From positions 1 to 64,000 of the forward strand of contig CAMBAL010000002.1 in the NCBI GenBank assembly GCA_945864225.1: 64,000 nt of DNA. The letters are read 5' to 3'. Both the position numbers and the translations under genes were made by a program. The notes beneath the pieces were generated by a model. That model had not been told where the DNA came from and did no database searches. It saw only the letters and a program-made list of their open reading frames with translations. Numbering within the stretch: the first letter of the stretch is position 1; each line of letters opens with the position of its first letter. Source of the stretch: an uncultured Blautia sp. (GTDB lineage Bacteria > Bacillota > Clostridia > Lachnospirales > Lachnospiraceae). Below, in pieces: positions 10,475-59,000 of the stretch.

Positions 10475-11755
10475 ATGATCACAGCAGTAGTGGGAGCGAA
10501 CTGGGGAGACGAGGGAAAAGGGAAGATTACCGACATGCTCGCTCAGGAAGCAGATATTATCGTAAGATTTCAGGGAGGTGCCAATGCGGGCCACACCATC
10601 GTCAATGACTATGGTAAATTTGCCCTTCATACACTCCCGTCCGGTGTGTTCTATGATCACACCACAAGCATCATCGGCAACGGCGTGGCACTGAACATCC
10701 CTGTGTTTTTTAAAGAGTATAACGAAGTAGTCAGCAGAGGCGTACCGGCTCCGAAGATCATGATCTCCGACAGAGCACAGATGGTAATGCCGTATCACAT
10801 CCTGTTTGACCAGTATGAAGAAGAACGTCTGGGCGGCAAGTCCTTCGGCTCTACCAAATCCGGTATTGCCCCGTTCTATTCTGACAAATATGCCAAAATC
10901 GGTTTCCAGGTAAGTGAACTCTTTGATGAGGAAGCACTCCATGAGAAACTGGTTCGTGTATGTGAGACCAAGAATGTTCTTCTGGAGCATCTGTATCACA
11001 AACCGCTTCTGGATCCGGATGAATTGATGAAAGAACTGATGGAATACAAGAAGATGGTAGAACCGTATGTAGGAGATGTATCTCTCTATCTCTGGAACGC
11101 ACTGAAAGAAGGCAAACAGATCCTTCTTGAGGGACAGCTTGGCTCCCTGAAGGATCCTGATCACGGAATTTATCCGATGGTTACTTCTTCTTCCACCCTG
11201 GCCGCTTACGGTGCCATCGGTGCAGGCGTACCTCCCTACGAGATTAAGAAAATCGTTACTGTATGCAAGGCATACTCCAGTGCAGTAGGCGCAGGTGCTT
11301 TTGTTTCCGAAATCTTCGGTGAAGAAGCGGACGAGCTCCGCAGAAGAGGAGGAGACGGCGGAGAATACGGCGCAACCACAGGACGTCCGAGACGTATGGG
11401 ATGGTTTGACTGTGTCGCTTCCAAATACGGCTGCCGTATGCAGGGAACCACAGATGTAGCTTTCACCGTACTGGATGTACTGGGATATCTGGATGAGATT
11501 CCGGTATGTACCGGATATGAGATCGACGGCAAAGTCACCACAGACTTCCCGACCACCGGCCTTCTGGAAAAAGCCAAACCGGTTCTGGAAGTACTTCCGG
11601 GATGGAAGAGCGATATCCGCGGAATCAGGAATTATGAAGACCTTCCGGAAAACTGCCGCAAATACATTGAGTTCGTAGAAGAGAAGATCGGCTTCCCGAT
11701 CACCATGATCTCCAACGGCCCGGGAAGAAACGATATTATCTACAGAAATAAATAA
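10475..11755 (+). CDS. purA: Adenylosuccinate synthetase
   Basis: A 426-residue GTP-dependent enzyme that joins IMP and aspartate to adenylosuccinate, the substrate of the purB product upstream. The N-terminal phosphate-binding signature VGANWGDEGKGK and the IMP-loop sequence GGANAGHTIV are both present, including the catalytic aspartate and histidine. EGQLGSLKDPDHGIYP-type and TGRPRRMGWFD segments are the other family landmarks. Length is normal (about 430). AAGGAGG lies at 10457-10463. A terminator follows at 11844. In the IMP site the family has a few variants and nothing here looks truncated. Confidence 0.97.
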   Translation: MITAVVGANWGDEGKGKITDMLAQEADIIVRFQGGANAGHTIVNDYGKFALHTLPSGVFYDHTTSIIGNGVALNIPVFFKEYNEVVSRGVPAPKIMISDRAQMVMPYHILFDQYEEERLGGKSFGSTKSGIAPFYSDKYAKIGFQVSELFDEEALHEKLVRVCETKNVLLEHLYHKPLLDPDELMKELMEYKKMVEPYVGDVSLYLWNALKEGKQILLEGQLGSLKDPDHGIYPMVTSSSTLAAYGAIGAGVPPYEIKKIVTVCKAYSSAVGAGAFVSEIFGEEADELRRRGGDGGEYGATTGRPRRMGWFDCVASKYGCRMQGTTDVAFTVLDVLGYLDEIPVCTGYEIDGKVTTDFPTTGLLEKAKPVLEVLPGWKSDIRGIRNYEDLPENCRKYIEFVEEKIGFPITMISNGPGRNDIIYRNK

Positions 11756-12821: not shown

Positions 12822-13228
12822 CGATAGTCAGGCCCCCGGTTATTCTCATCTCAGTAAAAGTTGTGGATGGATTGGATCAGGCAATTTGTGCAGACACCAT
12901 AAACGTTAATTCAGGATTTGTTACCCAATATAGTATGTTGCAGAAAGGCTAAGACCGATGTAAAATAAAAGTAACTGGTGTGAAATGATATTTATTGGAA
13001 ATAAAAAATAGAACAATTTGCGATGTACTGGTTTCCATGAGTGTATTTCGTGGCAGACATCAGTTGCTTTTTACGAAAACTTTACCAATATTTTTACAAA
13101 ATCTTTACATTCTTCTTTACCGGATTTTTGAGTTTATGGATTATATTCAAAAAGTAGTAAACGATATTCCAGACAAGTTCTGGCTGATAAAAAATGCTCA
13201 ATAGGGTAAGAAAGGAGAACATAAGAGA
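12822..13228 (+). other. Intergenic stretch, no gene supported
   Basis: About 400 bases, AT-rich in the second half. A 69-codon frame from a TTG at 12995 lacks a ribosome-binding site and resembles no family. Nothing else is recognised apart from the ribosome-binding site AAAGGAG (13211-13217) of the following gene. Confidence 0.5.
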
Positions 13229-13558
13229 ATGAAAAAAATATATGGAATCATCAGAAAACTTGGAGTTACTTCCCATTACAAGGGTTACTTTTTTGTTGCA
13301 GATGCGATTCGGCTGGCAATGGATTCTCAGGATAAGCCCCTGAGGATTACCAAGGATATCTATCCATATCTTGCAAGAAAATATAAAACTACAACCCTGA
13401 GTATTGAACATGATATACGTACTGTGATTAACGTATGCTGGTAAATGAACAGGAAAGGAATGGCTGATATTGCCGGCTATCCTCTGGTTTACAAGCCGAC
13501 AAACAGTGAATTTATAGATATGGTTGCCTATTATCTCTTATCTGCACAGGAAAGATAA
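13229..13558 (+). pseudogene. Stand-alone Spo0A C-terminal-domain protein interrupted by an in-frame TAA
   Basis: The first 71 codons encode a typical Spo0A effector domain: LGVTSHYKGYFFVADAIRLA, then ITKDIYPYLARKYKTT, then SIEHDIRTVINVCW, covering the recognition-helix region. A TAA at 13442-13444 stops translation. The same frame then stays open for 37 more codons, reading MNRKGMADIAGYPLVYKPTN then SEFIDMVAYYLLS, which is the expected end of this domain, and closes at 13556-13558. There is no receiver domain, so this is an orphan DNA-binding domain, not Spo0A itself. A single C-to-T change (CAA to TAA) would explain the stop. The truncated 71-residue product may still exist but lacks the final helices. 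AAAGGAG lies 11 bases before the start. Confidence 0.82.
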
Positions 13559-13627
13559 GTCCCTGTAAATGTCGAAGGAAAGTTCAGTATTCACATTGAG
13601 ATAAATACTTTATTTTTGAGGTGAGTT

Positions 13628-14308
13628 ATGGCAACAATAGCTGTAATTGAAGATAATGTACTAACTGGAGACATGGTAGAAGAGATTTTAGTGGAGGAGG
13701 GTTTCCGTGTGATCCGGGCATATTCCGGAACGGAAGCGTTGTATCTGCTGAAACATGAGAAACCTGATTTGATACTTCTGGATTTGATACTTCCGGGTCT
13801 TGGAGGTGAAGGAGTATTGGAACATATTAAGGATATTCCTGTTATTATACTGAGTTCAAAAACGGATGTAGAGGATAAGATAAATCTCCTGAACGAGGGT
13901 GCCTGCGACTATATAACCAAACCATTTCATAAAAAAGAATTGATCGCCCGTATTCTGGTGCAGCTGCGCAAAGGGCAAATTCCTCGTAATTATGCAGAGG
14001 AATCTATCGTATCATTTGGTGATTTAACATTGGATCCCCTGTTGTTGGATGTGACTGTTCAGTCACGGACCGTTAAGCTGACAAAAACGGAATGTGTGAT
14101 CCTCAAACTGTTGATGAATCATTCCAGGTATATCATTTCCAGAGATTTACTCCTGGATAGTATCAGCTATGAAACACCGGATTGTACGGAGAAGTCTTTG
14201 AAACAGCATATTTACAATTTACGGAAGAAGCTGAATAGTATTGACAGTAGTATTCAGATTGAGACTGTGCGGGGCGTTGGATTTAAATTATCCAAGAACA
14301 GGGAGTAG
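13628..14308 (+). CDS. OmpR/PhoB-family response regulator (orphan)
   Basis: A 226-residue two-domain regulator. The receiver (residues 1-115) has acidic pair E8/D9, phospho-acceptor D52 (LLDLILPG), switch serines S76/S77 and K98 (YITKPF). The C-terminal winged helix (about 130-222) contains KLTKTECVILKLLMNH and the recognition part KSLKQHIYNLRKKL, ending with ETVRGVGFKL. No histidine kinase is adjacent, so its partner is unknown. It follows the broken Spo0A_C gene by 70 bases and has its own ribosome-binding site (TTGAGGTG). A terminator follows about 100 bases after the stop. Confidence 0.92.
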   Translation: MATIAVIEDNVLTGDMVEEILVEEGFRVIRAYSGTEALYLLKHEKPDLILLDLILPGLGGEGVLEHIKDIPVIILSSKTDVEDKINLLNEGACDYITKPFHKKELIARILVQLRKGQIPRNYAEESIVSFGDLTLDPLLLDVTVQSRTVKLTKTECVILKLLMNHSRYIISRDLLLDSISYETPDCTEKSLKQHIYNLRKKLNSIDSSIQIETVRGVGFKLSKNRE

Positions 14309-14404
14309 TCTTGGAAACAGTCCTGTTCCACCTTATTTGAGGGAGCCACCGGAGAGGAACATTGAGTTCAGGGACAATAAAAGAAAAAACAGTTTATGGG
14401 AAAA

Positions 14405-14432
14405 CATCTCGGAAAATCCGGGGTGCTTTTTT
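14405..14432 (+). terminator. Terminator after the response regulator gene
   Basis: CATCTCGG (14405-14412) pairs with CCGGGGTG (14418-14425) including two G-T pairs, then C and six T residues. The remainder of the 300-base gap to the next gene shows no coding potential that I can support. Confidence 0.7.
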
Positions 14433-14607
14433 CATGACTATTTTAGATTTTTCTCGCTTCTTTCGGAGAAGAGATTTGATTCTCAAATGCTTGTCTGGCG
14501 GTAAATAATATGATAAGATAAAAACGCTTCAAAAGTGGAAACCCGGAATTGATGAATCTGACGTTTCAATGCTTAGAAGAAATTCAGAAAAATCGATATG
14601 AAAATAC

Positions 14608-16584
14608 ATGAATGACAAGGAAATGGAAATTATGGAAATTTTTGAAAAACGTTTACAGAAGCTGGAAAAAGAACTGCGTAGTCTATACTTTTCTCTCTAT
14701 GATTCGGAAGAATCCTACAATGAACTGATTAACTCCATGAGAGAAGCCTATCGCGTGAGAAAACCGGAATTGAAAGAACAGGATCTTGTCCGTGAACAGA
14801 ATCCGAAATGGTTTTTGGATGAGTGTATGTTCGGTATGACCATGTACCCGACCCATTTTGCAGATGGAATCAATGGAATACGCGAACATCTGGATTATCT
14901 TTCGGATCTGGGAATTACCTATCTCCATCTGATGCCGCTGCTGAAAATGCCTTATCCTGATAATGACGGCGGATATGCCATCGAAGATTTTCGTCAGGTA
15001 GACCCGAAAATCGGAACTAATGAAGAGCTGGAAGCACTGGCAGATGAGCTTCGCGCCCGCGGCATCAGTCTCTGTCTTGATTTTGTCATGAATCATACCG
15101 CTGATACTCATGAATGGGCGATGCGGGCAAAAGCCGGAGAAAAGGAATATCAGGATTATTATTATTGCTACGATACCAGAGAAATTCCGGATAAATTTGA
15201 ACAGAATCTTCATGAGATTCTGCCTGCAGATGCCCCCGGCAACTTTGTTTATTCCGAAGAAATGGGTAAGTGGGTGATGTCCCGTTTTTATCCATTTCAG
15301 TGGGATCTTAACTACCACAACCCAAAAGTTATGCAGGAGAGAATTGAAACAGCTCTTTTCCTGGCTAACCTGGGTGCTGATGCTATCCGTCTGGATGCTG
15401 CAACCGGTATCTGGAAAGACACGGAAAATTACACAAGCACTCTGGAACCGGCTTACACGATTATTCGAATTATGCACATTGCTGCGGAGCTTGTATGTCC
15501 GTCTCTGATTTTTAAAGGCGAAGTTCTGGTGGTACCATGGCAGGTTCCTAATTTCTTCGGCACTCCGGATCATCAGCGCTGTCAGCTGCTTTATGGCGCC
15601 AATGGAATGGCTAATTTGTGGAATGCACTGGCAACGCAGGACACCCGTATGATGAAAATTTTGATGGATCAGTTCCATAGCCTGCCGGATAACTGCAATT
15701 TTGTTAATTATATTCGCTGCCACGATGATCTGGGCTGGGCGCTGGATCCGGAAGTCGAGCGTTCTCTGCTGATGGATCCTCAGCTTCACAAAGAATTCCT
15801 TTATCACTTCTATGAAGGAAGCATTCCGGGAAGCTGGTCCAGAGGATCCCTGTTCAATTATGATCCGGTGACCAGAGATGCCCGCAGCAATGGCCGTGCT
15901 GCAAGTCTCTGCGGAATTGAAACCGCTCTGGAAGCACATGACGAACAGAAAATCCAGGCTGGTATTTCACGACTCCTGCTGCTTAATGCTGCCGGTATGA
16001 GTTTTCGCGGCTTTTTGATGATTTATTCCGGTGACGAAGTCGCTCAGCTTAACGATTATACGTTTGAAAAAGATCCGCAGCTGGCAAAGGAAAACCGGAA
16101 CATTCACCGCAATCCTTTTGACTGGGATTGGGCAGCAAAACGAACCGAACCGGGTACCATTCAGCAAAAGGTTTATAATGGAATGCGCCGGATGGCTGCG
16201 ATTCGCAAACAGCATCCCTGCTTTGGTGCCGATGCTTATGTTTCCACCTGGGATGCCCGCATTCTGCCGGGAAGAAAGGGATATGATCCGGAAACTCCGT
16301 GGATTCAGCCGGTATTTGCCATTTACAGGGAATATAATGGGGAAACCGATAGTGAAAATAGCAGAGAAAACAATGTAGACTGCAGCAGCGTAAACGGCAG
16401 AGATAATCACGCAGGTAATATTAGAGAAAAAATGTACTGCCTGTCCAATTTTGCGGACAGAGAAGTGGAAGTTCAGTTGCCGACGGTAACCGGCGTATGG
16501 CAGGATCTTTTTACAGGTGAAACCATTGATCCGGACAGGATTTACATGGCACCGTGGCAGTATCGCTGGATTATTTTGCGATGA
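14608..16584 (+). CDS. GH13 amylosucrase-like alpha-glucan enzyme (subfamily 4 type)
   Basis: A 658-residue cytosolic protein colinear with amylosucrase: a helical N-terminal domain (1-90), a (beta/alpha)8 barrel with YLHLMPLLKMPYPDNDGGYA and FVMNHTADTHEWA, and a C-terminal beta domain. Catalytic residues are D263 (nucleophile, in DAIRLDAATGIWK), E305 (acid/base, in FKGEVLV) and D373 (RCHDDLGW). PGSWSRGSLFNYDP matches the amylosucrase insertion. Such enzymes make glucan from sucrose or hydrolyse/transglycosylate it; which applies is not settled by sequence. An insertion rich in Asn/Ser (about residues 578-607, DSENSRENNVDCSSVNGRDN) is unusual and sits in the C-terminal domain. The start is uncertain: ATG 14632 has a better-spaced AAGGA than ATG 14608. 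Confidence 0.87.
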   Translation: MNDKEMEIMEIFEKRLQKLEKELRSLYFSLYDSEESYNELINSMREAYRVRKPELKEQDLVREQNPKWFLDECMFGMTMYPTHFADGINGIREHLDYLSDLGITYLHLMPLLKMPYPDNDGGYAIEDFRQVDPKIGTNEELEALADELRARGISLCLDFVMNHTADTHEWAMRAKAGEKEYQDYYYCYDTREIPDKFEQNLHEILPADAPGNFVYSEEMGKWVMSRFYPFQWDLNYHNPKVMQERIETALFLANLGADAIRLDAATGIWKDTENYTSTLEPAYTIIRIMHIAAELVCPSLIFKGEVLVVPWQVPNFFGTPDHQRCQLLYGANGMANLWNALATQDTRMMKILMDQFHSLPDNCNFVNYIRCHDDLGWALDPEVERSLLMDPQLHKEFLYHFYEGSIPGSWSRGSLFNYDPVTRDARSNGRAASLCGIETALEAHDEQKIQAGISRLLLLNAAGMSFRGFLMIYSGDEVAQLNDYTFEKDPQLAKENRNIHRNPFDWDWAAKRTEPGTIQQKVYNGMRRMAAIRKQHPCFGADAYVSTWDARILPGRKGYDPETPWIQPVFAIYREYNGETDSENSRENNVDCSSVNGRDNHAGNIREKMYCLSNFADREVEVQLPTVTGVWQDLFTGETIDPDRIYMAPWQYRWIILR

Positions 16585-16706
16585 TAAACGAAACGGAAAT
16601 GTAGGCTTACGCAGACATCACCAATAATAAAAGTATAAATCAGTGAAAAAGTAAGAAACGAAGAGGCAAAGTGGTCGCAGAAGATTCGGAGGAAGGTGAA
16701 TCATTT

Positions 16707-18593
16707 ATGAATCTTGTCAAATGTGAAAAGGGTCATTTTCAAAAAACGGACAGGCCATATGTATTTATCAGCTATTCGCACAAAAATAATATTCAGAGAG
16801 CCGCTGTCTGTAACAAACTTTCAGAAAATCAGATACGTTACTGGTTTGATGATGGACTTCATTCCGGGGATGACTGGAACATGATGATTGCAGAATCTCT
16901 GCGCAAAGCCTCTGTATGTCTGCTGCTTTTGTCAGAAGATTCTGCATCTTCGGAATATGTAAAAAATGAATTGAACTTTGCTATGAATCACAGAATTCCG
17001 ATTCATGTTTTGTTGTTGGAGGAGTTTGTATTTCCATCGGATATTGAGATGATGCTTGGAAGAATACAGATGGTTTTTTTCGAAGAGGGATATATTGAAA
17101 AACTGGTTCGTTCATTCCCGCCGGAAGTTCAGATACAAAACTGTGGTCCGGCTGCGGAGGCTGTATCAGAACATCCGCTTTTTGACAGGAAAGGGTTATT
17201 ATTTGAGTGTCAGGGAACTTCCACTTATCTTGCGGTACATCGGACGTTGGGATACGAGTGCCTCCTGATGGAGGAAAATACAGGAGCTTATTCTCAGAAG
17301 GAAATTATCAGTCAGGCAAAAATTGCCGCGAAATTGAAACATCCTCTTTTTCCGGACATCTATGATATCAAATGCACAGGAAATCAGGTTCTTACCTGGC
17401 AGGAAAAAAGAAATGAGCAGTTTCTGAGTGAATATCTGAAAGAGCATGTTCTGTCTCAGGAGGAAATTCTTTATTATGCTGAACATATGACAGAAGGCAT
17501 GAATTATTTATACAAATGCAATCTGGCGATGAAGGATTTTCCAAGGGGAAGTGTTGTCGTACTTGATGGAAAAGACATTGGTCTGTTTCGCATGCAGAAT
17601 CCTTATTATGGACCGGTAAAGATGTCAGTTGAGAACCGGGAATATTATTTCGAAAAAATGCTTGAGAATCTTGCCATTTTTATATATCAGCTTTGTACAG
17701 GGGAAGAACCGGTATTGCCGATCGGAATAGTTCAGTCTGAAAACCTGGAAAAACTTTTTGCCAGAAAAATGAATCTGATTATTCAGAAAATGGTTCGTGA
17801 AAATAAGCATACGCGGTACTTGTCATTTGAGGAAGTGTTATCTGATCTGAAGAAAAACAGGATTACTCTTTCAGAAGAGATGTTTTTGCGGAAACGCGAA
17901 AAGAAATTAAAAGAATATCAGGAACTGAGAGAAAAACGCAAAATGATTTTTACTGAAGCTGCAGAAGAAAAGCTTAATTCCCTTTGGAATTCGAATTCGA
18001 TGGAGAAAGGAGAAAAACGTAGTCTCCTTTGGAATTCAAGACCGATAGAAAAAGGAGAAAAACGTAGTCCTTTTTGGAATTCGAATTCGATAGAGAAGGA
18101 TGGAATGATTCTGGAAATAAATCCGAAAGATTTAGAGCTTTATTCTGAGAAGGGTTTGCCGAATCTGGAAGAACAGTTTGGCTTTGACAGTACGGTAGTA
18201 CTTTCCAGGCAAGAGGAAAATAAACCAGGATCTGTGGAAGGAAATCCTTCTTTTTCCATTCTTATTTGCGCTACAGGAGAAGTCAGACATTTCCGGAAGG
18301 AAAGCATTCTGATCGGAAAATCGAAAGAAAAATGTGATCTGTGTATCAACCAGCCCGCGCTCAGCCGGATTCACGCAAAAATCGAATGCAGAGAAGATGG
18401 AACATACAGAGTGACAGATATGGATTCCATGAATGGGGTGTATTATACGGAGAAGGAAACAGGTGAAAAAAGGAAAATTCAACGGGAAGCGGTTGTTGAG
18501 GCCGGGACAGTGATCTGGATGGGGGAGATTGCGGTGAAGGTGATGGGATGGGTGAGAACCGATTACGCTGAAGAAAATCAGGTAGTAGAATAA
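16707..18593 (+). CDS. TIR - degenerate protein kinase - FHA multidomain protein
   Basis: The frame is open from 16671, but ATG 16707 follows GGAGGAAGG and gives 628 residues beginning MNLVKCEKGHF. A TIR domain spans about 18-137 (YVFISYSHKN; YWFDDGLHSGDDW; SEYVKNELNFA containing the candidate catalytic glutamate). A kinase-like fold spans about 163-385, but it is degenerate: the VAIK lysine is missing (YECLLMEE), HRD reads MKD without the following lysine, and DFG is not recognisable. A charged helical linker follows, with three 15-residue repeats (about 426-465). A C-terminal FHA domain (about 516-614: ILIGKSKEKCDLCI, ALSRIHAKIE, DMDSMNGVY) has the Arg/Ser/His/Asn residues of phosphothreonine binding. 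No membrane segment. A signalling or defence role is inferred; function unproven. Confidence 0.83.
   Translation: MNLVKCEKGHFQKTDRPYVFISYSHKNNIQRAAVCNKLSENQIRYWFDDGLHSGDDWNMMIAESLRKASVCLLLLSEDSASSEYVKNELNFAMNHRIPIHVLLLEEFVFPSDIEMMLGRIQMVFFEEGYIEKLVRSFPPEVQIQNCGPAAEAVSEHPLFDRKGLLFECQGTSTYLAVHRTLGYECLLMEENTGAYSQKEIISQAKIAAKLKHPLFPDIYDIKCTGNQVLTWQEKRNEQFLSEYLKEHVLSQEEILYYAEHMTEGMNYLYKCNLAMKDFPRGSVVVLDGKDIGLFRMQNPYYGPVKMSVENREYYFEKMLENLAIFIYQLCTGEEPVLPIGIVQSENLEKLFARKMNLIIQKMVRENKHTRYLSFEEVLSDLKKNRITLSEEMFLRKREKKLKEYQELREKRKMIFTEAAEEKLNSLWNSNSMEKGEKRSLLWNSRPIEKGEKRSPFWNSNSIEKDGMILEINPKDLELYSEKGLPNLEEQFGFDSTVVLSRQEENKPGSVEGNPSFSILICATGEVRHFRKESILIGKSKEKCDLCINQPALSRIHAKIECREDGTYRVTDMDSMNGVYYTEKETGEKRKIQREAVVEAGTVIWMGEIAVKVMGWVRTDYAEENQVVE
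17982..18103 (+). repeat. 45-bp tandem repeat inside the TIR/FHA gene (2.7 copies)
   Basis: Units start at 17982, 18027 and 18072 with the core TTTGGAATTC...GAGAAAGGAGAAAAACGTAG. Each encodes about LWNSNSMEKGEKRS. The period is a multiple of three, so copy number can vary without changing frame. It lies in the linker between the kinase-like and FHA domains. Confidence 0.85.
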
Positions 18594-18654
18594 AAGAAGC
18601 GGTTGCTGCATGAAACATATGACCTTTTGGCCCTTGTATCATGAGATATTACAA

Positions 18655-18708
18655 ACAAAAAATGCCCCGCCTATAGTTTTACTACTCCGGGTAATTATAG
18701 GCGGGGCA
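18655..18708 (-). terminator. Terminator of the M56 peptidase operon
   Basis: A perfect 13-bp stem, TGCCCCGCCTATA (18663-18675) with TATAGGCGGGGCA (18696-18708). On the minus strand it is followed by TTTTTTGTTTGT. It may also stop the plus-strand gene that ends at 18593, but the T tail is on the minus side. The remaining ~110 bases before the M56 stop hold nothing recognisable. Confidence 0.85.
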
Positions 18709-18821
18709 GATTTAACTGATGAAGTGAGATGATTCTATTTGATAATTAATCACCTTATAGCTAATTAATCCGTTATTTACAATAACCAATCTTTTATGCT
18801 ATATATTGCGAAAATACAGAT

Positions 18822-20117
18822 TTAATTGTCGTGTGGACAGGTAACGTAGGTATGTGTACTAATAAGGTCTCCGCCTACTAAATAGTTACATTTTGTGCAA
18901 ATCTGTGCACTATAGATTTTAACTGTACATCCTCCAGTGCTGTTGTGGATATGTTTTGCATATCTTCCGCTTGTAAATGTATGATTGCAGATGGCATATG
19001 AAGTATCACCGTTGTTATTAAGAAAAATATATTCGCCGGAGTCGGTAATAAACACATCATCGTATCCGGAAAAATCCATATCATCAATATTGTCGTAAAG
19101 AATAGCATCGTCGCCAAATGCAAAAGTCATATCATCACCATCGGAAAGTTCTGTAACAACATCTTCCGTACTCGACTGCATCGGTTCATACGCAAAAACC
19201 GTCAATGCACTTGCCATAACTGTAACTACTGAAACTACAACGGTAACTAATTTCTGAATTCTATTAAATCTTTTCTTCATAATATACGTTAGCCTCCTTT
19301 GGAATAGATATTTCGTGCTTGAGAAGTTATTTCTCCATACCACAGGCATAGCTTTTGCCGCAGCAACGTTCAGGAGTAAATTCGCATACTCTTTCCGTTT
19401 ATTCTGCTTCAATCCTTCCGTAGCATAATCATCGCACAGATACTCACACAGATTTCCGTATGAGAACAGCAGCAAGATTGCCAGTGGATTAAACCAGTGA
19501 AGACATACAATAATTAAGCAGACAAGCTTAATCAATGCATCGTAATTCTTTGCGTGACAATATTCATGCCTGTAAATTAAGGTGCTGTATTGGGATTCTG
19601 CCAGATTCTCTGGAAAGATGACATGAGGACGGATAAATCCAACCGTATAGGGTGTGTGAATATTGTTATTGATCAGAATGGAAACGGATCCTGTGCCAGG
19701 AAAATCGTAAACGTTTTCTTCTGAATTTGTCAGAAGATATTTCACAGTTTTTCTGTATTTCACTACCTGGTATATTGCGAAAAGAAAGACAACAATAAAC
19801 CAGATACACAGGATATAAAACATCCATCTCGGAACCCACATAAATCCATCATTAATGGTTACATACCGGGTGCTTCCATATTCAAAATGGAGCTGCGGTG
19901 TGGTTCGCAGTCTGATTTCCTCTGCAATAGTTGTATGATACATACTTTCCGGAAGAATTCGCGTAAGCAGCTGAAATGGCACTAAATAAAAGACCATGCT
20001 CAAATACAGCAGAATTTTTCCCAGAGAATAGTTGAAACTCTTTCTCTGTAAAAGCCACGTTAACAGAAAGATAACCAAAGGAATGGAACCGGCAATTGAC
20101 ATCCAAAGCAACAGCAT
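18822..20117 (-). CDS. M56 (BlaR1/MecR1-type) membrane metallopeptidase
   Basis: A 431-residue protein with about three N-terminal membrane helices, a cytosolic zinc-protease domain with HEYCH at 184-188 (HExxH) and the third-ligand region NLCEYLCDDYA, then a further membrane helix near 290-312. The region outside the membrane (about 313-431) is not a penicillin-binding domain. It is acidic and then Cys/His-rich (CNHTFTSGRYAKHIH, CTVKIYSAQICTKCNY, CPHDN), suggesting metal binding or disulfides. Family members sense a signal outside and cut a cytosolic repressor, normally of the BlaI type. No BlaI gene is adjacent; the small membrane gene upstream occupies its place. GGAGGA inside the upstream gene drives the ATG, which is one base after that gene's stop. 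Confidence 0.88.
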   Translation of the reverse strand: MLLLWMSIAGSIPLVIFLLTWLLQRKSFNYSLGKILLYLSMVFYLVPFQLLTRILPESMYHTTIAEEIRLRTTPQLHFEYGSTRYVTINDGFMWVPRWMFYILCIWFIVVFLFAIYQVVKYRKTVKYLLTNSEENVYDFPGTGSVSILINNNIHTPYTVGFIRPHVIFPENLAESQYSTLIYRHEYCHAKNYDALIKLVCLIIVCLHWFNPLAILLLFSYGNLCEYLCDDYATEGLKQNKRKEYANLLLNVAAAKAMPVVWRNNFSSTKYLFQRRLTYIMKKRFNRIQKLVTVVVSVVTVMASALTVFAYEPMQSSTEDVVTELSDGDDMTFAFGDDAILYDNIDDMDFSGYDDVFITDSGEYIFLNNNGDTSYAICNHTFTSGRYAKHIHNSTGGCTVKIYSAQICTKCNYLVGGDLISTHTYVTCPHDN

Positions 20118-20118
20118 A

Positions 20119-20484
20119 TTATTCCTCCGTATCAGGTTCTTCGAGGTTGTTTAAAAAACAACGCAGTTTGTCAATGTCATCGTTCGATAATTCGGTTTTA
20201 TCAAGAGCATTAACAAGTTCTGTAAAAGAACCCCGATAAGATTGATCCGGAATATTCCTGGTTTCTCTGACATTTTCATTTTCTGCCACTTTAAATGAAA
20301 ATATCTTAAAAATAGAATATCCGGAAAGACCGGAGACAATAATCGAAAATCCGGCGGCGCAGATCATGTATCTGATCGCAGCGCCATATTCCTGTGGAGC
20401 ACCTGCAACAAGGTTATAAAATAAACAGGCACATAACAGGACAGATAATATCACTGTAATGATAATGCGTATTATTTTCTTCAA
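20119..20484 (-). CDS. Small two-helix membrane protein, partner of the M56 peptidase
   Basis: The longest frame begins at 20601, but that is upstream of the promoter at 20537-20565. A TTG at 20484 preceded by GAGGGG gives 121 residues: two hydrophobic helices (IIRIIITVILSVLLCACLFY; YMICAAGFSIIVSGLSGYSIF) and a polar cytosolic tail of about 55 residues (RGSFTELVNALDKTELSNDD, DIDKLRCFLNNLEE). It resembles no family I can name. The stop is one base from the M56 start, so the two are tightly coupled. It might be the substrate, an inhibitor or an assembly partner of the protease; this is inference from position. Confidence 0.7.
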   Translation of the reverse strand: MKKIIRIIITVILSVLLCACLFYNLVAGAPQEYGAAIRYMICAAGFSIIVSGLSGYSIFKIFSFKVAENENVRETRNIPDQSYRGSFTELVNALDKTELSNDDIDKLRCFLNNLEEPDTEE

Positions 20485-20536
20485 AATAATTCCCCTCAAC
20501 AAAATAAATTGAATAAACAATTCTATGATTAAGCTC

Positions 20537-20565
20537 ATTGTAAACAATAGAGAAATAATTGTCAA
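20537..20565 (-). promoter_or_regulatory. Sigma-A promoter of the M56 operon
   Basis: On the minus strand TTGACA (20565-20560), a 17-bp spacer and TACAAT (20542-20537). Both hexamers are near consensus. The implied transcript start near 20530 supports the TTG start at 20484. Confidence 0.85.
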
Positions 20566-20646
20566 GAAATGAAAAAATTTTATCAGGATAAACACCATCA
20601 TATTATAAAAGGTATGGCAGATGCATTCTTCAGTTTACAATAAGAA

Positions 20647-20892
20647 GTGTGCAATCCGGTAATACTTGCGGAATTCATGTATTTTGTGGCAGAGAAAAAG
20701 ATTCAGGTTTTCAACTATGGAAACTGCAAGAGCGATTTCACTTATGCAGATAACATTGTCGAAGGTGTGAAGAGGTCTATGCAGGGAGCTTCGGAGAAGA
20801 ATAACAGAGAAGTTTTGAGGAAGTGTTTAAGTGAAAATAAAGACAGTAATGATACCGATCATATTTTCTGGAACCAGTATAATCCGCGATAA
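20647..20892 (+). pseudogene. Remnant of an NAD-dependent UDP-sugar epimerase
   Basis: An 81-codon frame containing KKIQVFNYGNCKSDFTYADN followed by IVEGVKRSMQ. This matches the internal segment of UDP-glucuronate 4-epimerase type enzymes (IxxFNxGxxxRDFTYxDDIVEGV). The Rossmann half and the C-terminus are missing, and after about residue 50 the sequence no longer resembles the family. It is therefore a decayed internal fragment. It ends inside the left arm of the 139-bp palindrome, so rearrangement there may have destroyed the gene. Confidence 0.7.
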
Positions 20893-21025
20893 ATAACCAT
20901 ATGTTTCGCTGGTCTGCTTTCCCGATAGCACAGTTGTAAAAGCCTCAGCGTAGCCCGCTACGCCTGCGTTTTTACAACTGTGCTATCGAAAAAGCATCCT
21001 CACCGAAACATATGGGTATTTATCG
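20887..21025. repeat. 139-bp near-perfect palindrome
   Basis: Outer arms CGATAAATAACCATATGTTTCG (20887-20908) and its near complement (21004-21025, one mismatch) enclose inner arms at 20923-20953 and 20958-20988, which match over GATAGCACAGTTGTAAAA and its complement. The axis is at about 20956. No coding frame explains the symmetry. It could be a MITE-like or REP-like element or a long hairpin. Confidence 0.85.
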
Positions 21026-21303
21026 TGGCTTATACTGGTTGCCGAGGCGATTGGAGTAACGGAGTAGTTGTTGAGTCGTTTTCAGATAAATCAGGCCGAA
21101 ATATTTGCTTAAGGCCGAAGGGGAATGAGCAACAAGAACCTCCGCAGACATACACCATTGTACATCCGCGGAGGTTATAAGGGGAGGATATAAGTATTTC
21201 TACATTTATCTTCGGTAACTGTTCGATTGAAGGGGGTTCCAATGAACATTAGTAGTATGTCCGGCGGGAAAGTTTTTATACAACTATTCAAAAAATAATA
21301 ATT

Positions 21304-21471
21304 GGAAATTTCATAAAGCATACTCAGAATCAGGAATATAATCAAAAACTCCTCAGAACAGAAATACAATCAGAAACTCCTCAGAACAGGAATATAATTA
21401 AAACCCCTCAGAACAGAAATACAATCAGAAACCCGTCAGAATTGGAATATAATCAGAAATTTCTCAGAATA
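21304..21471. repeat. 28-bp tandem repeat array (about 6 units)
   Basis: Units begin near 21304, 21333, 21361, 21389, 21416 and 21444, with the pattern GGAATATAATCAGAAACTCCTCAGAACA (alternating GGAATATAAT and GAAATACAAT starts). Unit lengths are 27-29 bases. There is no spacer diversity, so it is not a CRISPR array. It lies just upstream of the promoter region of the SEC-C gene. Confidence 0.85.
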
Positions 21472-21595
21472 GGATTTGTCTTTTGCCGGAAAAGGTGTTA
21501 TAATGGTGCAGAACTGTCGGAAACGGTGTGTTTCCGGTACACTCCGGCAGGAACTGACCGGACAGAAACGAATTTTGGAAAAGAGGAAGAAACAG

Positions 21596-22105
21596 ATGAG
21601 TGATAAAACTATCTTAGAGCAGTGGCGTTCCATCGCTTACGATCAGCAGGCTGACCGCAATAAACTCCAGCAGTTCTGGGCTAATTATTTTAACATCGAA
21701 AAAGGAATTTATGAGCAGCTTCTTACGAATCCGGATGAAGTAGTAACCGGAACTGTGAAGGAACTGGCTGAGAAATACGGACAGGAAGTTCTGACTATGG
21801 TTGGTTTCCTGGATGGCATCAATGACAGTCTGAAGGTGCCGAACCCGATTGATACCATGGATGAGGACACCGTTGTCAATCTCGGATTTGACAAAGAGCT
21901 TCTTTACAAGAACATGGTAGATGCAAGAGCTGACTGGCTGTACGAACTCCCGCAGTGGGATGCGATTTTCTCCGAGGAGAAACGGAAAGAACTCTATCTT
22001 GAGCAGAAGAAATCCGGTACAGTTGTGAAGGCTAAGAAAATCGGCCGTAACGATCCATGCCCGTGCGGAAGCGGAAAGAAATACAAATTCTGCTGCGGCA
22101 GATAA
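21596..22105 (+). CDS. SEC-C zinc-motif protein
   Basis: The frame is open from 21476, but ATG 21596, after AAGAGGAAG, gives 169 residues ([20 protein letters not shown]). The body is helical and acidic. The last 20 residues, [20 protein letters not shown], are a complete SEC-C motif (CPCGS...CC) that binds zinc and, in SecA, contacts SecB and ribosomes. The protein is far too short for SecA; free-standing SEC-C proteins of this size exist but their role is uncertain. A strong terminator follows 18 bases after the stop. The single gene has its own unit. Confidence 0.88.
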
Positions 22106-22122
22106 TTGCTCACAGACACAGT

Positions 22123-22155
22123 GGACTGTCGATATATGCGGCAGTCCGTTTTTTT
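22123..22155 (+). terminator. Terminator of the SEC-C gene
   Basis: GGACTGTCG (22123-22131) pairs with CGGCAGTCC (22139-22147) with one G-T pair; G and seven T residues follow. Confidence 0.85.
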
Positions 22156-22213
22156 ATATTACAGGAAAGTGCTCCGCATTTTCCTGTAATATAAAAAAGC
22201 CCTCCGGGCAGAA
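22150..22213. repeat. Dispersed stem-loop repeat, copy A (best preserved)
   Basis: TTTTTATATTACAGGAAA and TTTCCTGTAATATAAAAA flank the loop GTGCTCCGCA. A short second hairpin GCCCTCCGGGC follows, then AGAATCGTAC. Its left arm overlaps the terminator T-run. Similar elements occur at 23420, 35221, 42421 and, reduced, near 26575 and 50003. Confidence 0.8.
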
Positions 22214-22267
22214 TCGTACGTCGGCGGAGCGGAATTATATAGCTAAAGCAATGAAGGAGGAATGCGG

Positions 22268-52895: not shown

Positions 52896-53013
52896 ATGTT
52901 TTGTGATTTTTGTGAATAATGGATATTATCAGATAACAGCATCTGTGGATCCGATTTGCAAAGCGTAAAAATAGTTTAATTTCGTGTACGACTGGGAATG
53001 AAGGGCAATGAGA

Positions 53014-56000
53014 ATGGGTAAATCTTTAAAAAAAATGATGTGTGCAGTATTGTCGGCTGCACTGTGCTTTTCCAATCTGAATATAACTGCAATTTCAGCA
53101 GAAGCGGTATTTGATTCCTCAATGACTTCCGAAGATATCCTGATTTCAGATGGAACAGAGGAAAATGGGACAGATCTGATTTTTGATGATGGAAGTGATG
53201 CGGACTTTTCCGATGGTATGGAAGAAGCGGGGAACGGTTCTGCTGCCGAAAATCAGGAAGAGAATGCAGCAGAGGAAGAGGAGAATATCATCTATGATCC
53301 GGTAAACCGGATTCATGAAACGGATCAGCTGGAGGTGAAGCTGACCGACTGGTGGTATAAAAACCCGCAAGGCGAAACGCAGAAAATAGAAACAACGGTA
53401 TCATCAGAAGAAGAGAAGAACAATGTTGTCTGTGATCTGTCACAGATAAAGGAAGATAATTATTCGGAAGCGGGCTTCGATCTTTCCTTCACATTTTTAA
53501 AAGAAGGAGAGGAGCGGAATGTGCAGGCATCGGATTATCTTTCCTTTACGCTGCCTGCATGTTTTAAAGAACTGTCGGTTACGGGAGCGCAGGAGGATTA
53601 TTATACATACACCCTGCAAGAGCAGGAAGATCATTCCTATAAGATGACGGTTACTTTCCAGACCATTCCGGAAACACCGGATATAAGCGGAACGATACAT
53701 ATGGCGTTTTCTCTGGGGGAGACAATGGAAAATGAGGCAGGAAGCACCTGCCTTTTTGTGCTGCAGGGAAATCAGACTCAGCCGATGGCAAGTGTATCCT
53801 ACGAAGTGATTTTTCCGGAGCAATCAGTGGAAGAAGCCGCCGGGGAAGATACGGAGGAAAATGGGGAAGAAGATACAGAAGAAGATACAGAAGAAGATAC
53901 AGAGGGAGATGGCGTGAATGCTGCGCAGGGTGAGGAAGAAGAACATGCGGAGGATTTTGCGCAGGAGAATACAGAAGAGGGCGTGGAGGATTTTACGCAG
54001 GAGAATACAGAAGAAGGAGTGGAGAATTCTTCGAAGGAGAACACAGAAGAAAATGCCGGTAATTCTGCGGAAGAAAACATGGAAGAGGAAGAACCGGATG
54101 CTGCAGCTATGCCAATGTTGATGACGGTTGGAGATAACGGAGAAGAGTCTTCGGTGGAAGCCGTGGGTGAATCGGAAAATGGAAGCGATACCGGTTCACC
54201 GCTGGTTCAGGGAGAATTCAGTGTTTCCGGGACAATTGCATTTGATGAAACACTGAATGGAACAGACTGGCGTGAGCTGGTGCGCCCGAATGAGTTTGAT
54301 ACAGATAATACGATTAGGATCGTGCTGTCTTATACGGATAATAATGGAGCAGGACAAAGTATTGAAACATATGCACAGGACAATCTTTCCACGGATAATT
54401 TTTATTTGAAATTTACCCATGATGGAGAAGGCGGAGGCGACTTTGTCATCGAGCATGTGCCGAAGACCGTGATGGTTGATGGGAAAGAGTATCAGGTAAA
54501 CAGCTATGAGATAGCTATTGCACCCAAGCAAAAGTACTATCAGAGTAAAGATATCATCAATATTAAATTTCAGAATTTTAGTGATAAGACAAAAGTGATT
54601 GGTACGTTGAGTCTTGCTCTGAAATATCAAACACTTACTCTGCAGCCGACGGTGAAGCCAGATGGTGGAACGGATAATCCGTCGTTTAAAATGAATGTGG
54701 TATTTAAAAATGGGATTGAATCAAATGTTGCCGCGTCAGGTGGAAAAACGCTGTCCTATAAACCTTACGTATCCACACCATCCAAAATTTCTGTTCCGCT
54801 GGGAATTTCCTATCAGGTGACACAGGAGGTTACTTCCGGGTATAAATTTGATCAGAATTATACAACTACGATTACCGGGGAAGGATTAGAGGATTCAAGC
54901 TTAACAGGTACAACCGCAACAGGAATAATCGAGGCAGGAAAGAATATCACGATATCTACGGTAAACTATGCCCAGAATGTTTCGGTTGGTTTCTATGTAA
55001 AATGGAATGACAATAACTCTGCAACGCGTCCGGCAGCGTTGACTAAAGAGAATTTCGTTTTACAGTATCGAACTGGAGAGGGAGAATGGACAGAGCTTAC
55101 AGAAGAGCGTTTTAGTGAACTTGGAGTGAATCAAATGCCCGGTTTTGATGATTCGTTGGCACTTACGGGGAAATTTTCGTTTACAGGGCTGCCGGCAATA
55201 GACGCAAAGAATCGGTCATTGATTTATCAGGTGGCGATAAAAGAGGAACAGGTTCCGAACGGATACATTGTCGCTCCGTTGGCTGTTGAGAATGGAGGTA
55301 CGTTTACATTCAGGGAAACCACAAGCTTTACTGCGGATATAGTATGGAATGATGACAGCAATATAAAAAAATTGCGGCCGGGCACAATTGAAGAGCTGAA
55401 GCTTTACCGAAGAGCTGAAAACGGGACTTATGAATTGGTATGTGATACGATTCCGGAGAACTCTATAACGAAAAGTGGAAATACCTGGTCTGTTTCATTG
55501 AATAATCTGCCAAGATATAATGAGCAGAATCAGGAATATGATTATGTGCTGGTGCAGGGAACCATTGGTACAGACAACGTTGTTCAGCAGAAGTCCATTG
55601 AAAACTACAAAACGTATTATGATAACGGTTCCGGAAGCTATGGAAATGATGTTTCCCTTTGCCATAACAATGGAAAAATAACAGAAGTTCTTTATGATAC
55701 GATTGATTTTACAGCAAAGAAAATATGGCTGGATCCACATACAAATAAAAGTGATCGTCCAACAACAAATGATCGGCCAACAACAAAGGTAACTCTTTGG
55801 CGATATGTGAAAAGTGAGGCAAAGGATCTTGACGCTGCCTATCAGAATGGTAAGGCAGCCCAGGTCGTATTCCAGAAGGAAAACGACGGTCAGGATAATA
55901 TTGTCGAAAATATAGTCTCCTATTCGCTTAATACAAGTATTAATGAGAATACAATTAAGTTTAATTCTGCTTCGGTTACTGGATTGAGCGCAAGTTATAC

Positions 56001-59000
56001 ATTTCCCCTCTATGATGATCAGGGCAGGGAGTATGTGTATTTCGTCAGGGAAACTCTCACAGGTGAGAATGAAGAGAATTATGAAATACAATATAAGGAC
56101 AAAGACGGCACGGTTCATACGAATGGTACGTTAACTGGCGGTACCATTACCAATATCCGCCGTGAAAAGGCAGCAGTGGCTATCACAAAAGTATGGCAGA
56201 ATCCAGCTGACCTTGCCAGTATTTCGGGTACACAGGTACAGATGAAAATCGAAGCCCCTTTGCTTGGAGCAGCAGAAGAAAATCCAAAATATAAGGAACT
56301 GACAGTATATTCCGATACGAGGAATTCATATGAGAAGCTGAATGAAAACGACAAAGCCACAGCTCAGACGGCATCCGGTTTTTCCTCCAGCATTTCTTCG
56401 GCAGAGGTTGTTTATTATGTGAATATCTACGACGAATCCGGCAGACCTTATGATATGACTAAGGCAAAGATCCGGGAGGTGATCACGAAAGATGGTCAGA
56501 CGTTGACTTTGGGTAGAGACAGTACATTTACAATGGGTGAGGACACTTATAAAGCCAGTACACAATATGTAGAGCAGATTGTGCTTGCGGATGGAACAAA
56601 GCAATTCACTTATACCCAGAAAAATACCATTACAGGTACCAGAGATTATACAATTATAAAGAAATGGGATGAAAGTATTTCACCGGAAAAATACGCTGAC
56701 ATTGCTTATGTAAATTTCACACTCCAGCGTCGTACCACCAGGGATAATCCGGATGGAACACAGGCTGCTTTTGAGACGCTTGAAGGGAATTATCAGATAA
56801 ACCGTGTGGATGGGGAAAAAACATGGACAACAGTTTTGCATGATCTGCCTAAATATGATGACGAAGGGTATGCGTATGAGTACCGTGCTACAGAAGTAAG
56901 CTTCACGAAAAATGATGGAACAATATTTACTACGACTGAGGCCTATAATGATCCGGATCGTGGATGGTCGGTGAATCATGATCGTACTCCGGATCAGACA
57001 ACAGCTATCAACTATATCAGTACCAGCGGGAGTGGCTTCTTCCAGGTGAGCAAAAACTGGGTAGATAATGGAGACACGGAGAACAGAAAGCCTGTGACGG
57101 TACGAGTCTATTATAGGGAGAATCTGTTAAAACAGTTGACGGATTTACAGGAAACCAACAGTGAGAAAGATGCTGATATTGTAGATTTGACGCAATTAAC
57201 ACACTTTAAAGAATATACAATTACCGACGCCAATAACTGGACCATCAATATTTCTTATAATGATTTGCATGATGCGACGGGTACAGAAGATTTAGAGGAT
57301 GCCATTAAGAACAACTGGCAGAACTATATTGTGGTGGAATACCGGATCGGAACAGAGGGAACAGGGACAGAAACTACCGAAGCTGCAGGTGACGGAGCGC
57401 AGCCGGCACAATATACATACGGCGTATTGAAAGCAGCAGCCAGCATGACAAAGAGTGCCACAGACGAAACCGGCGAAACGAGTAGTGAGAATGCATATTA
57501 TTCTTTTGCCGGCACCGCGGAGAATGCCAGCCGCCTGTATAAGACGACGACTTTGGTTGATGACAGCAATCATTATGGTCATGTGTACATCACAAATACC
57601 CGTATCGGCACAACAGATATCACAGTAACAAAAACCTGGAGGGATGACAGCGATGCTACCGGTAACCGTCCGTTATCTGTAGAGTTTCAGCTTTATCAGG
57701 ATGGAAGCGCGTATACTTCGATTCCGGATACCGTTTCCATAACCGGAACCTCCGAAACAGTGGTAGAATTAAATCGTGAGACAGGTGTGGTAACGATTCG
57801 AAATCCTAAGGAGGATTCGTGGTCGTTTACCTTAAGCGGACTTTTCATGTTTAATTCCCATGCCGTGCCGCATTCCTATGACATAGAAGAAAAAGTGCTG
57901 TCTGCAGGAAATACGTCGAACAGTTATATTCAGGAACAGGGAACAACTGTGGTAACTGGAACAGACAAGAACCAGAATTATGCCTTTTCTTTTACCAACA
58001 CGATTACCGGTATGATCAGCCATGTTGCCTACAAGTACTGGAAGGATCCGGATCCGGCGTCTTATGCGGCGAATCGGCCGGACTTGTATCTTTCATTGTT
58101 CCAGTATTTAAAAAGCGAGAAGAAAGCAAACCCGGATACGGAACTTAGTAATCTGGAATCTTATAAAAAATATACAGATTATAAAGACCAGATCTGGACA
58201 CCAGAGAAGACGGATAGTAACTCATCAGGAGATTATGAAAAAGAATACAACTGGAAGATTACGATCAAAGATCTGCCGCAGTTTGATGAGAATGGAAATG
58301 AGTATGGCTATGTGTTCGTGGAATCCATGAACAATGATGGACAGACTGTACTGGGTAAATATGTGGGTACCTCTGAAACAAAACAGATTAGCGGAAGCAG
58401 TGACACCTATGAAGTTTTTACGAATGTGATTCAGGATTACATGACAGTAAAGGGACTCAAAACATGGACTGGTCTGGAGGGTTACCATATCGATAATAAT
58501 GATCTTCCCGACCCGTTGATTTCCCTGTACTGTACGACCGATTCCACAATTACAAATATCCAGAATTGTACAGACGAACAGATTGCGGAATGGGTGAAGG
58601 CTGAAAAAATTATCTTGGTGGACACCACCCATTTGGATGCGAGTAAGACAACATATGCCTTTCCCACAGAAAACGGAGTAAAAATAGGTGGTTTTGTCCA
58701 GGAAGTAAACGGCAAACGGATGCTGCCAAAATTTGATCAAAACGGCAAGCGATACACCTACCTTATCCGAGAGACCATCGAGGATCCCATTGCCAGTCAG
58801 CTTTATACCAAAACGAATGCAAACGGTACCCTGGCGAATGTGTTCCGCAAGGATTTAAACCGCCGTACGATCACGGTCACAAAAACATGGTTAGGTAGAG
58901 AGAATCTTGCAGACAATGAAAAGAAATATCCTTCTGTTACCTACACACTGTATCGTTACGAGGCAGGAGAAGAAGAAACAACCACTGAAAAAATCGCAAC

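Follow-up and report, generated by a model that had tools for sequence, protein, structure and literature searches.

We analysed a stretch of 64,000 nucleotides from an uncultured Blautia sp. (contig CAMBAL010000002.1, positions 1 to 64,000; "the window" below), and in particular a gene on its forward strand whose 628-residue product combines, in this order, a TIR domain, a kinase fold that lacks the chemistry of a kinase, and an FHA domain. An earlier note on this DNA had pointed out the three domains and suggested a phosphopeptide-gated TIR NADase or a scaffold. The observation is confirmed and its interpretation is partly supported: the TIR–pseudokinase–FHA protein is a real and rare TIR effector-type architecture. 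The gene has the following features, all on the + strand.

16690..16696, +, Shine-Dalgarno-like AGGAAGG upstream of the ATG at 16707 (sequence)
16707..18593, +, TIR–pseudokinase–FHA gene, 628 aa, with an alternative GTG start at 16671
16707..16739, +, MNLVKCEKGHF, resembling the first half of a zinc ribbon; family conservation absent
16746..17129, +, TIR domain, residues 14–141 (profile match, fold model)
16968..16970, +, candidate catalytic Glu88 in KNELNFA
17169..17858, +, pseudokinase domain, residues ~155–384 (profile comparison)
17265..17267, +, Leu187 at the position of the VAIK lysine
17535..17552, +, degenerate catalytic loop D277–S282
17589..17591, +, Arg295 at the position of the DFG aspartate
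17966..18097, +, 45-bp in-frame tandem repeat in the linker, 2.9 copies
18162..18203, +, conserved linker island NLEEQFGFDSTVVL, residues 486–499 (alignment)
18192..18194, +, Thr496, candidate phosphorylation site
18252..18545, +, FHA domain, residues 516–613 (profile match, alignment)

A family with three domains in one chain

A protein search in which 7993 candidates were scored and 101 kept returned 94 relatives (P0001–P0094), which are 35–99% identical to the query over 62–98% of its length. The domain order thus belongs to a family and is not a one-off. The source labels suggest that most relatives derive from metagenome assemblies. All residue counts below refer to 89 aligned relatives, a few of which are incomplete (e.g. 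P0090 at the TIR end); longer or fused proteins (P0015, P0036, P0074, P0091, P0092) and partial or distant ones (P0095–P0101) were omitted. TIR, pseudokinase and FHA in a single chain are common to these 89. We were not able to find a description of such a protein among open-access PMC papers (bioRxiv preprints were outside this search). In the accessible parts of PMC7159879 and PMC8195603, TIR, kinase and FHA are alternative effector domains of conflict systems, and this single-chain order is not met there.

The TIR domain

A modelled TIR fold together with a profile match above the curated cut-off places the N-terminal domain in the TIR superfamily. The match to PF08937 (22.1 bits, cut-off 21.2) lies far under that to TIR_2, and the PADLOC model of ThsB matches with E=8e-8 over 76 residues. 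A Thoeris system is unsupported, as the PADLOC scan of seven neighbours showed no ThsA (the remaining genome was not searched for ThsA).

The candidate catalytic residue Glu88 is present in 89/89 relatives, and D48, G54 and D56 (88 each) and W57 (87) are kept almost as strictly; the loop W[YF]D-x-GLHSGDDWN is almost invariant down to 35% identity. In SARM1 and AbTir, a conserved glutamate of the helix that follows the third strand has a catalytic role. It is not diagnostic of an NADase, however, because TLR1 and TLR15 also have it. The structures closest to the TIR model are SPARTA TIR-APAZ, Hydra TRR-2 and SARM1. For a TIR profile (A2) made from 34 TIR domains, most of them from outside the family, the best match in the PDB is the CRISPR-associated TIR Cat1 filament, whereas a PDB sequence search using the TIR domain alone gave no match. 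SPARTA TIR-APAZ and Cat1 are bacterial TIR NADases, and what gates them is Argonaute with nucleic acid in one case and a CRISPR signal in the other. Our protein has a pseudokinase and an FHA domain instead, and APAZ is absent. The protein is predicted to be a TIR effector that cleaves nicotinamide adenine dinucleotide (NAD+).

The pseudokinase and FHA domains

Kinase positions were mapped by profile–profile comparison with six kinase domains from the collected loci (probability 99%). Where the VAIK lysine should be, the relatives have V (43), I (36), L (6), A (2) or M (2) and never lysine, and at the alpha-C glutamate position they have Q (40), L (18), R (14) and others. The HRD-type aspartate position holds D in 80 and E in 7, the catalytic-loop asparagine is replaced by serine in 87 and kept in 2, and the DFG aspartate has become arginine in 88 and lysine in 1. 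Moreover, the activation segment is ~14 residues shorter (a 19-column gap against a 5-column insertion in the profile–profile alignment). An active Hanks-type kinase is rejected on the residues at the VAIK lysine, the catalytic-loop asparagine and the DFG aspartate (L187, S282 and R295 in the query), with an equivalent loss across the relatives apart from the two that keep the asparagine. With its catalytic residues lost and its fold retained, the domain is a pseudokinase. It has a motif of its own, RDFxRGS...R-L-QN-x-YYG, whose strong conservation in a dead kinase argues for a preserved non-catalytic role.

The FHA domain scores 41.6 bits against a cut-off of 20.7. At the sequence level it is of the phosphothreonine-binding type, with the motifs G-[RK], S-R-x-H and N-G: G537 is kept in 88 relatives, R/K538 in 87, S553, R554 and H556 in 86 each, N576 in 84 and G577 in 77. 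The query itself has Lys538 in place of arginine. What the earlier note had read from the letters of the single protein (a TIR domain with a candidate catalytic glutamate, a kinase-like domain without the VAIK lysine and a normal HRD/DFG, an FHA domain with its phosphothreonine-binding residues) is therefore borne out across the family, with lysine in 0/89, the DFG aspartate lost in 89/89 and the key FHA pocket residues retained in 84–88.

The same note had seen half of a zinc ribbon spliced to the TIR domain. The pattern is indeed present in the query; among the 101 kept proteins it recurs in P0001 and P0003 and, in complete form, on a separate kinase-like part of P0015, and P0002 has a one-residue variant of it. 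In the window and all loci collected, its only match is the TIR–pseudokinase–FHA gene. Since only the query and its closest relatives carry the half ribbon, it lies outside the conserved machine, and we rejected it as a functional part. A complete ribbon of a different type (MYCPHCG...CPFCG) stands ahead of an FHA domain elsewhere in the genus (L098).

A conserved threonine in front of the FHA domain

Within the otherwise hypervariable linker between kinase and FHA, just upstream of the FHA domain, we find a conserved island with the consensus [NS]LEE-x-FGF[DE]-x-T-V-x-L. Its threonine, Thr496, is kept in 85 of the 89 relatives, the valine at +1 in 71 and the leucine at +3 in 70; the column entropy is 0.27 bit at Thr496 against 3.4–3.8 bits at 480–485 and 2.8–3.6 bits at 500–504. 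From Thr496 to the column of Cys521, in the first FHA strand, there are 18–35 residues (median 20; 86 rows including the query). With Thr496, the idea of a phosphopeptide-gated TIR domain gains a concrete candidate phosphosite. The 45-bp repeat of the same linker differs in copy number between close relatives (the query and P0001 have about three, P0002 and P0003 one).

Similar motifs occur before some other FHA domains of the genus. In 60 genomes, of which 59 have an FHA domain, we kept 29 new loci (L096–L124) with 33 FHA-containing open reading frames (ORFs); three with fewer than 32 residues ahead of the domain were dropped, which left 30. A window of up to 80 residues upstream of the FHA domain plus 8 inside it was scanned and compared with 2000 shuffles. 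The strict motif [DE]-x(0-2)-T-V-x-L was found in 10/30 proteins (shuffles: mean 0.26, maximum 4) and a loose form in 15/30 (mean 3.6, maximum 11). These proteins are not independent: 11 of them form one orthologue group, that of the FHA protein on contig C66 of the Blautia genome (11 loose, 8 strict), and the remaining 19 contribute 4 loose and 2 strict matches (the strict split was taken from the listing). We infer that a T-V-x-L-type motif may be a recurring phosphoacceptor code.

Three further loci encode TIR–FHA proteins. Like the query they have TIR and FHA in a single chain, but they are without the pseudokinase, and their TIR domains share 29–34% identity with that of the query. In L040 the FHA domain is preceded by DDDETVTL; L048 has no comparable threonine before its FHA domain, and the GERKTVLDE of L050 fails the strict motif. 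By eye, all three lie shortly downstream of two C39/ABC-exporter-like genes (L040 5–13 kb, L048 4.5–15 kb, L050 4.8–11.6 kb), which is another difference from the query. Also by eye, a kinase gene is adjacent to the TIR–FHA gene in L040, and in L048 a PP2C gene lies downstream, as does a kinase gene, the latter at a distance of a few genes. In the latter locus a small membrane protein (10764–11120) with four TVY/TLY repeats after acidic residues adjoins the TIR–FHA gene, near the PP2C and kinase genes; it is a possible multi-site FHA ligand.

Kinases that could write the mark

Three ORFs of the genome score above the kinase cut-off. One, on contig C93, is of PknB type, with repeats that by eye are PASTA-like; its gene lies directly downstream of a PP2C-type gene, so that the kinase/phosphatase pair for which the earlier note proposed to look exists elsewhere in the genome, along with two further kinases. 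There is one other FHA protein, on C66. With a genome that is 84% complete, little weight can be put on absences.

A phosphorylation-gated TIR effector?

The reading that we prefer, at a probability of roughly 0.38 and hence tentatively, is that of a TIR effector that cleaves NAD+ and whose copies assemble in response to phosphorylation. A cellular Ser/Thr kinase, with the PknB-type kinase on C93 as the first candidate, would phosphorylate Thr496; a neighbouring copy would bind this mark in trans with its FHA domain, which would lead to TIR oligomers or clusters and thus to NAD+ cleavage. The pseudokinase may serve for docking or sensing and offer the linker to the kinase. The outcome could be phage defence or else some other response to stress, or suicide. 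The three folds, the lost kinase residues, the TIR glutamate, the FHA pocket, the Thr496 island and the genomic kinases and PP2C come from sequence, alignment or model, while NADase activity, Thr496 phosphorylation, trans recognition by the FHA domain, TIR oligomers, the role of the pseudokinase and the trigger are what we infer from them. The fuller picture of a phosphothreonine signalosome, with housekeeping kinases that write Thr496, FHA domains of neighbours that read it and polymerise, clustered TIR domains that destroy NAD+ and the dead kinase as docking or sensing platform, is rather doubtful.

There are partial precedents. The FHA domain of OdhI/GarA binds a phosphorylated threonine that lies N-terminal to it in the same protein (PMC2784874), and the phosphomotif is given as ETTS in PMC12321487. 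The likeness lies in a conserved threonine in an acidic context N-terminal to FHA, here a candidate PknB-type site; it is mechanistic only, as GarA/OdhI is a ~15-kDa metabolic inhibitor without TIR or kinase, has ETTS instead of FGF[DE]xTVxL, and its NCBIfam model (OdhI) gives the query 17.1 bits against a cut-off of 200. Human TIFA is likewise an FHA protein of innate immunity that forms large oligomers once a threonine near its N-terminus, Thr9, is phosphorylated (PMC10113258), but it is eukaryotic and has neither a TIR nor a kinase domain. The Thr496 island is reminiscent of how GarA/OdhI and TIFA are switched by phosphothreonine. In mycobacteria, the MurJ (MviN) pseudokinase is phosphorylated by PknB and complexes with FhaA (PMC6180346); here too a bacterial pseudokinase works with phosphothreonine recognition by FHA, although these are two proteins, a membrane flippase is involved, cell-wall control is the output and there is no TIR domain. 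For SPARTA, PMC11156904 reports both a tetrameric oligomer and NAD(P)+ hydrolysis.

The GarA/OdhI case, as the closest bacterial precedent, also suggests a switch of opposite sign, in which phosphorylated Thr496 would be held in cis by the protein's own FHA domain, keeping TIR off until the mark is removed, e.g. when an invader inhibits the kinase or the kinase is lost. The PP2C–PknB-type pair of the genome makes it plausible that the mark is constitutive. The median of 20 residues between Thr496 and the FHA-strand cysteine is, however, shorter than the 28–29 from T14/T15 of OdhI to the start of its FHA domain (residue 43), so that the reach in cis, though conceivable, would be tighter; and SPARTA, whose TIR is closest in fold, is active as tetramers, according to the title of PDB entry 8spo ('Tetramerized activation of MapSPARTA bound with NAD+'). 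We consider the cis lock quite unlikely.

Some observations call for caution about the trans-activated NADase that we prefer. The scaffold TIR domains of TLR1 and TLR15 retain the equivalent of Glu88, MyD88 is almost as near to the TIR model by fold, and the support for the motif outside the TIR–pseudokinase–FHA family comes from few lineages. The first two fit a scaffold without NADase activity, in which TIR, pseudokinase and FHA would all serve for interactions and build up a signalling complex; sequence or domain type marks two of the three as non-catalytic. The invariance of Glu88 and the near-invariance of the GLHSGDDWN loop, even in distant relatives, speak against this, and in P0092 a restriction-endonuclease-like (REase-like) domain adjoins the TIR domain, which suggests effector use. 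The scaffold is the least probable of the alternatives that we weighed.

If the signalosome is real, it would be a TIR effector wired directly into the Ser/Thr phosphorylation network of the cell, as a one-protein bacterial counterpart of the TIFA-plus-TIR logic. A TIR protein with a phosphothreonine reader, a pseudokinase and a conserved candidate phosphosite would tie reversible Ser/Thr phosphorylation to NAD+ depletion, and it makes it directly testable, with a few point mutants, what an orphan pseudokinase does in bacteria.

Distribution and fusions

In genome contigs, full-length relatives were found in three of the best 80 of 203 (L009, L010 and L011, labelled Lachnospiraceae, Oscillospiraceae and Erysipelotrichaceae; L011 is cut by the contig end), and their neighbouring genes differ by eye. 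Beyond its own genome, we did not find the family among 397 genomes of the taxonomic family, 392 of the order and 398 of the phylum (overlapping samples). In a set of 61 genomes, 4 others match with a single domain each (TIR or FHA). Viral contigs and plasmids gave no match, and the phage search one, to TIR only (20% of the query). The gene is rare and patchy, and it looks stand-alone.

A few relatives are fused to additional domains. P0036 and P0074 begin with a PP2C-like domain (residues 1 to ~265; Pfam sub-threshold, best E=0.02 and 0.088) in which the metal-binding motifs are lost (VADG became ICSG and VCKG, CSDG became CSST and CSPD), so these are probable pseudophosphatases. The front end of P0092 is REase-like (PADLOC REase–TIR model E=1.5e-7 over residues 1–280; Mrr_cat sub-threshold, E=0.035); a PDB sequence search with P0092 gave no match. 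P0015 consists of a ribbon, a kinase-like part and an extra TIR in addition to the TIR–pseudokinase–FHA unit. Some of these four fusions could be artefacts of assembly or gene calling.

Genomic setting

The gene lies in an insert:

12822..22261, no strand, accessory, mostly low-GC insert containing the gene (congener comparison, GC)

The flanking HAD and DUF218 genes are 9.4 kb apart here and 624 bp apart in the congener G002. The guanine-plus-cytosine (GC) content is 0.37–0.43 across most of 12.5–21.5 kb, up to 0.48 in the amylase gene, and beside the insert 0.47–0.49 on the left and 0.42–0.48 on the right. Besides the TIR protein, the insert encodes a response regulator, an alpha-amylase-family protein, M56 and MecI-like proteins and a SEC-C protein.

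Nine neighbours were scanned with Pfam, and seven with PADLOC and NCBIfam (for PADLOC three insert genes and four flanking ones, 10.5–25.5 kb). No defence system was recognised in these scans, nor, by eye, any defence system or shared partner gene in L009, L010 and L011, and the proximity to defence islands that the earlier note had raised was not seen for these genes. The only PADLOC matches of neighbours are those of the amylase-family gene (GlgB model C3a214, E=7e-23; PtuA, weak, E=0.016), which we take to reflect the enzyme family and not a defence system.

TIR NADases are common defence effectors, with nucleic acids, phage proteins and nucleotide signals as known triggers. The protein might thus be a dedicated anti-phage abortive-infection protein, triggered by a phosphorylation state that the phage has altered, and a rare, patchy gene in an accessory insert with one REase-fused relative would fit this. 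Against it stand the PADLOC scan with its single matching gene, the remaining contents of the insert listed above, the neighbours in L009 and L010, which differ and are housekeeping by eye, and PADLOC models that each cover at most one domain of the protein. We regard this alternative as unlikely.

Next to the TIR gene lies an M56/BlaR1-like and MecI-like gene pair (18822–20601, -). Between the convergent TIR and M56 genes we see, by eye, a terminator-like 12-bp inverted repeat, GCCCCGCCTATA...TATAGGCGGGGC (18664–18707). Farther along the window, a giant ORF (53008–63999, +), open at the window end and at least 3664 aa long, with five Cna_B and two SpaA-type stretches, encodes a probable surface adhesin.
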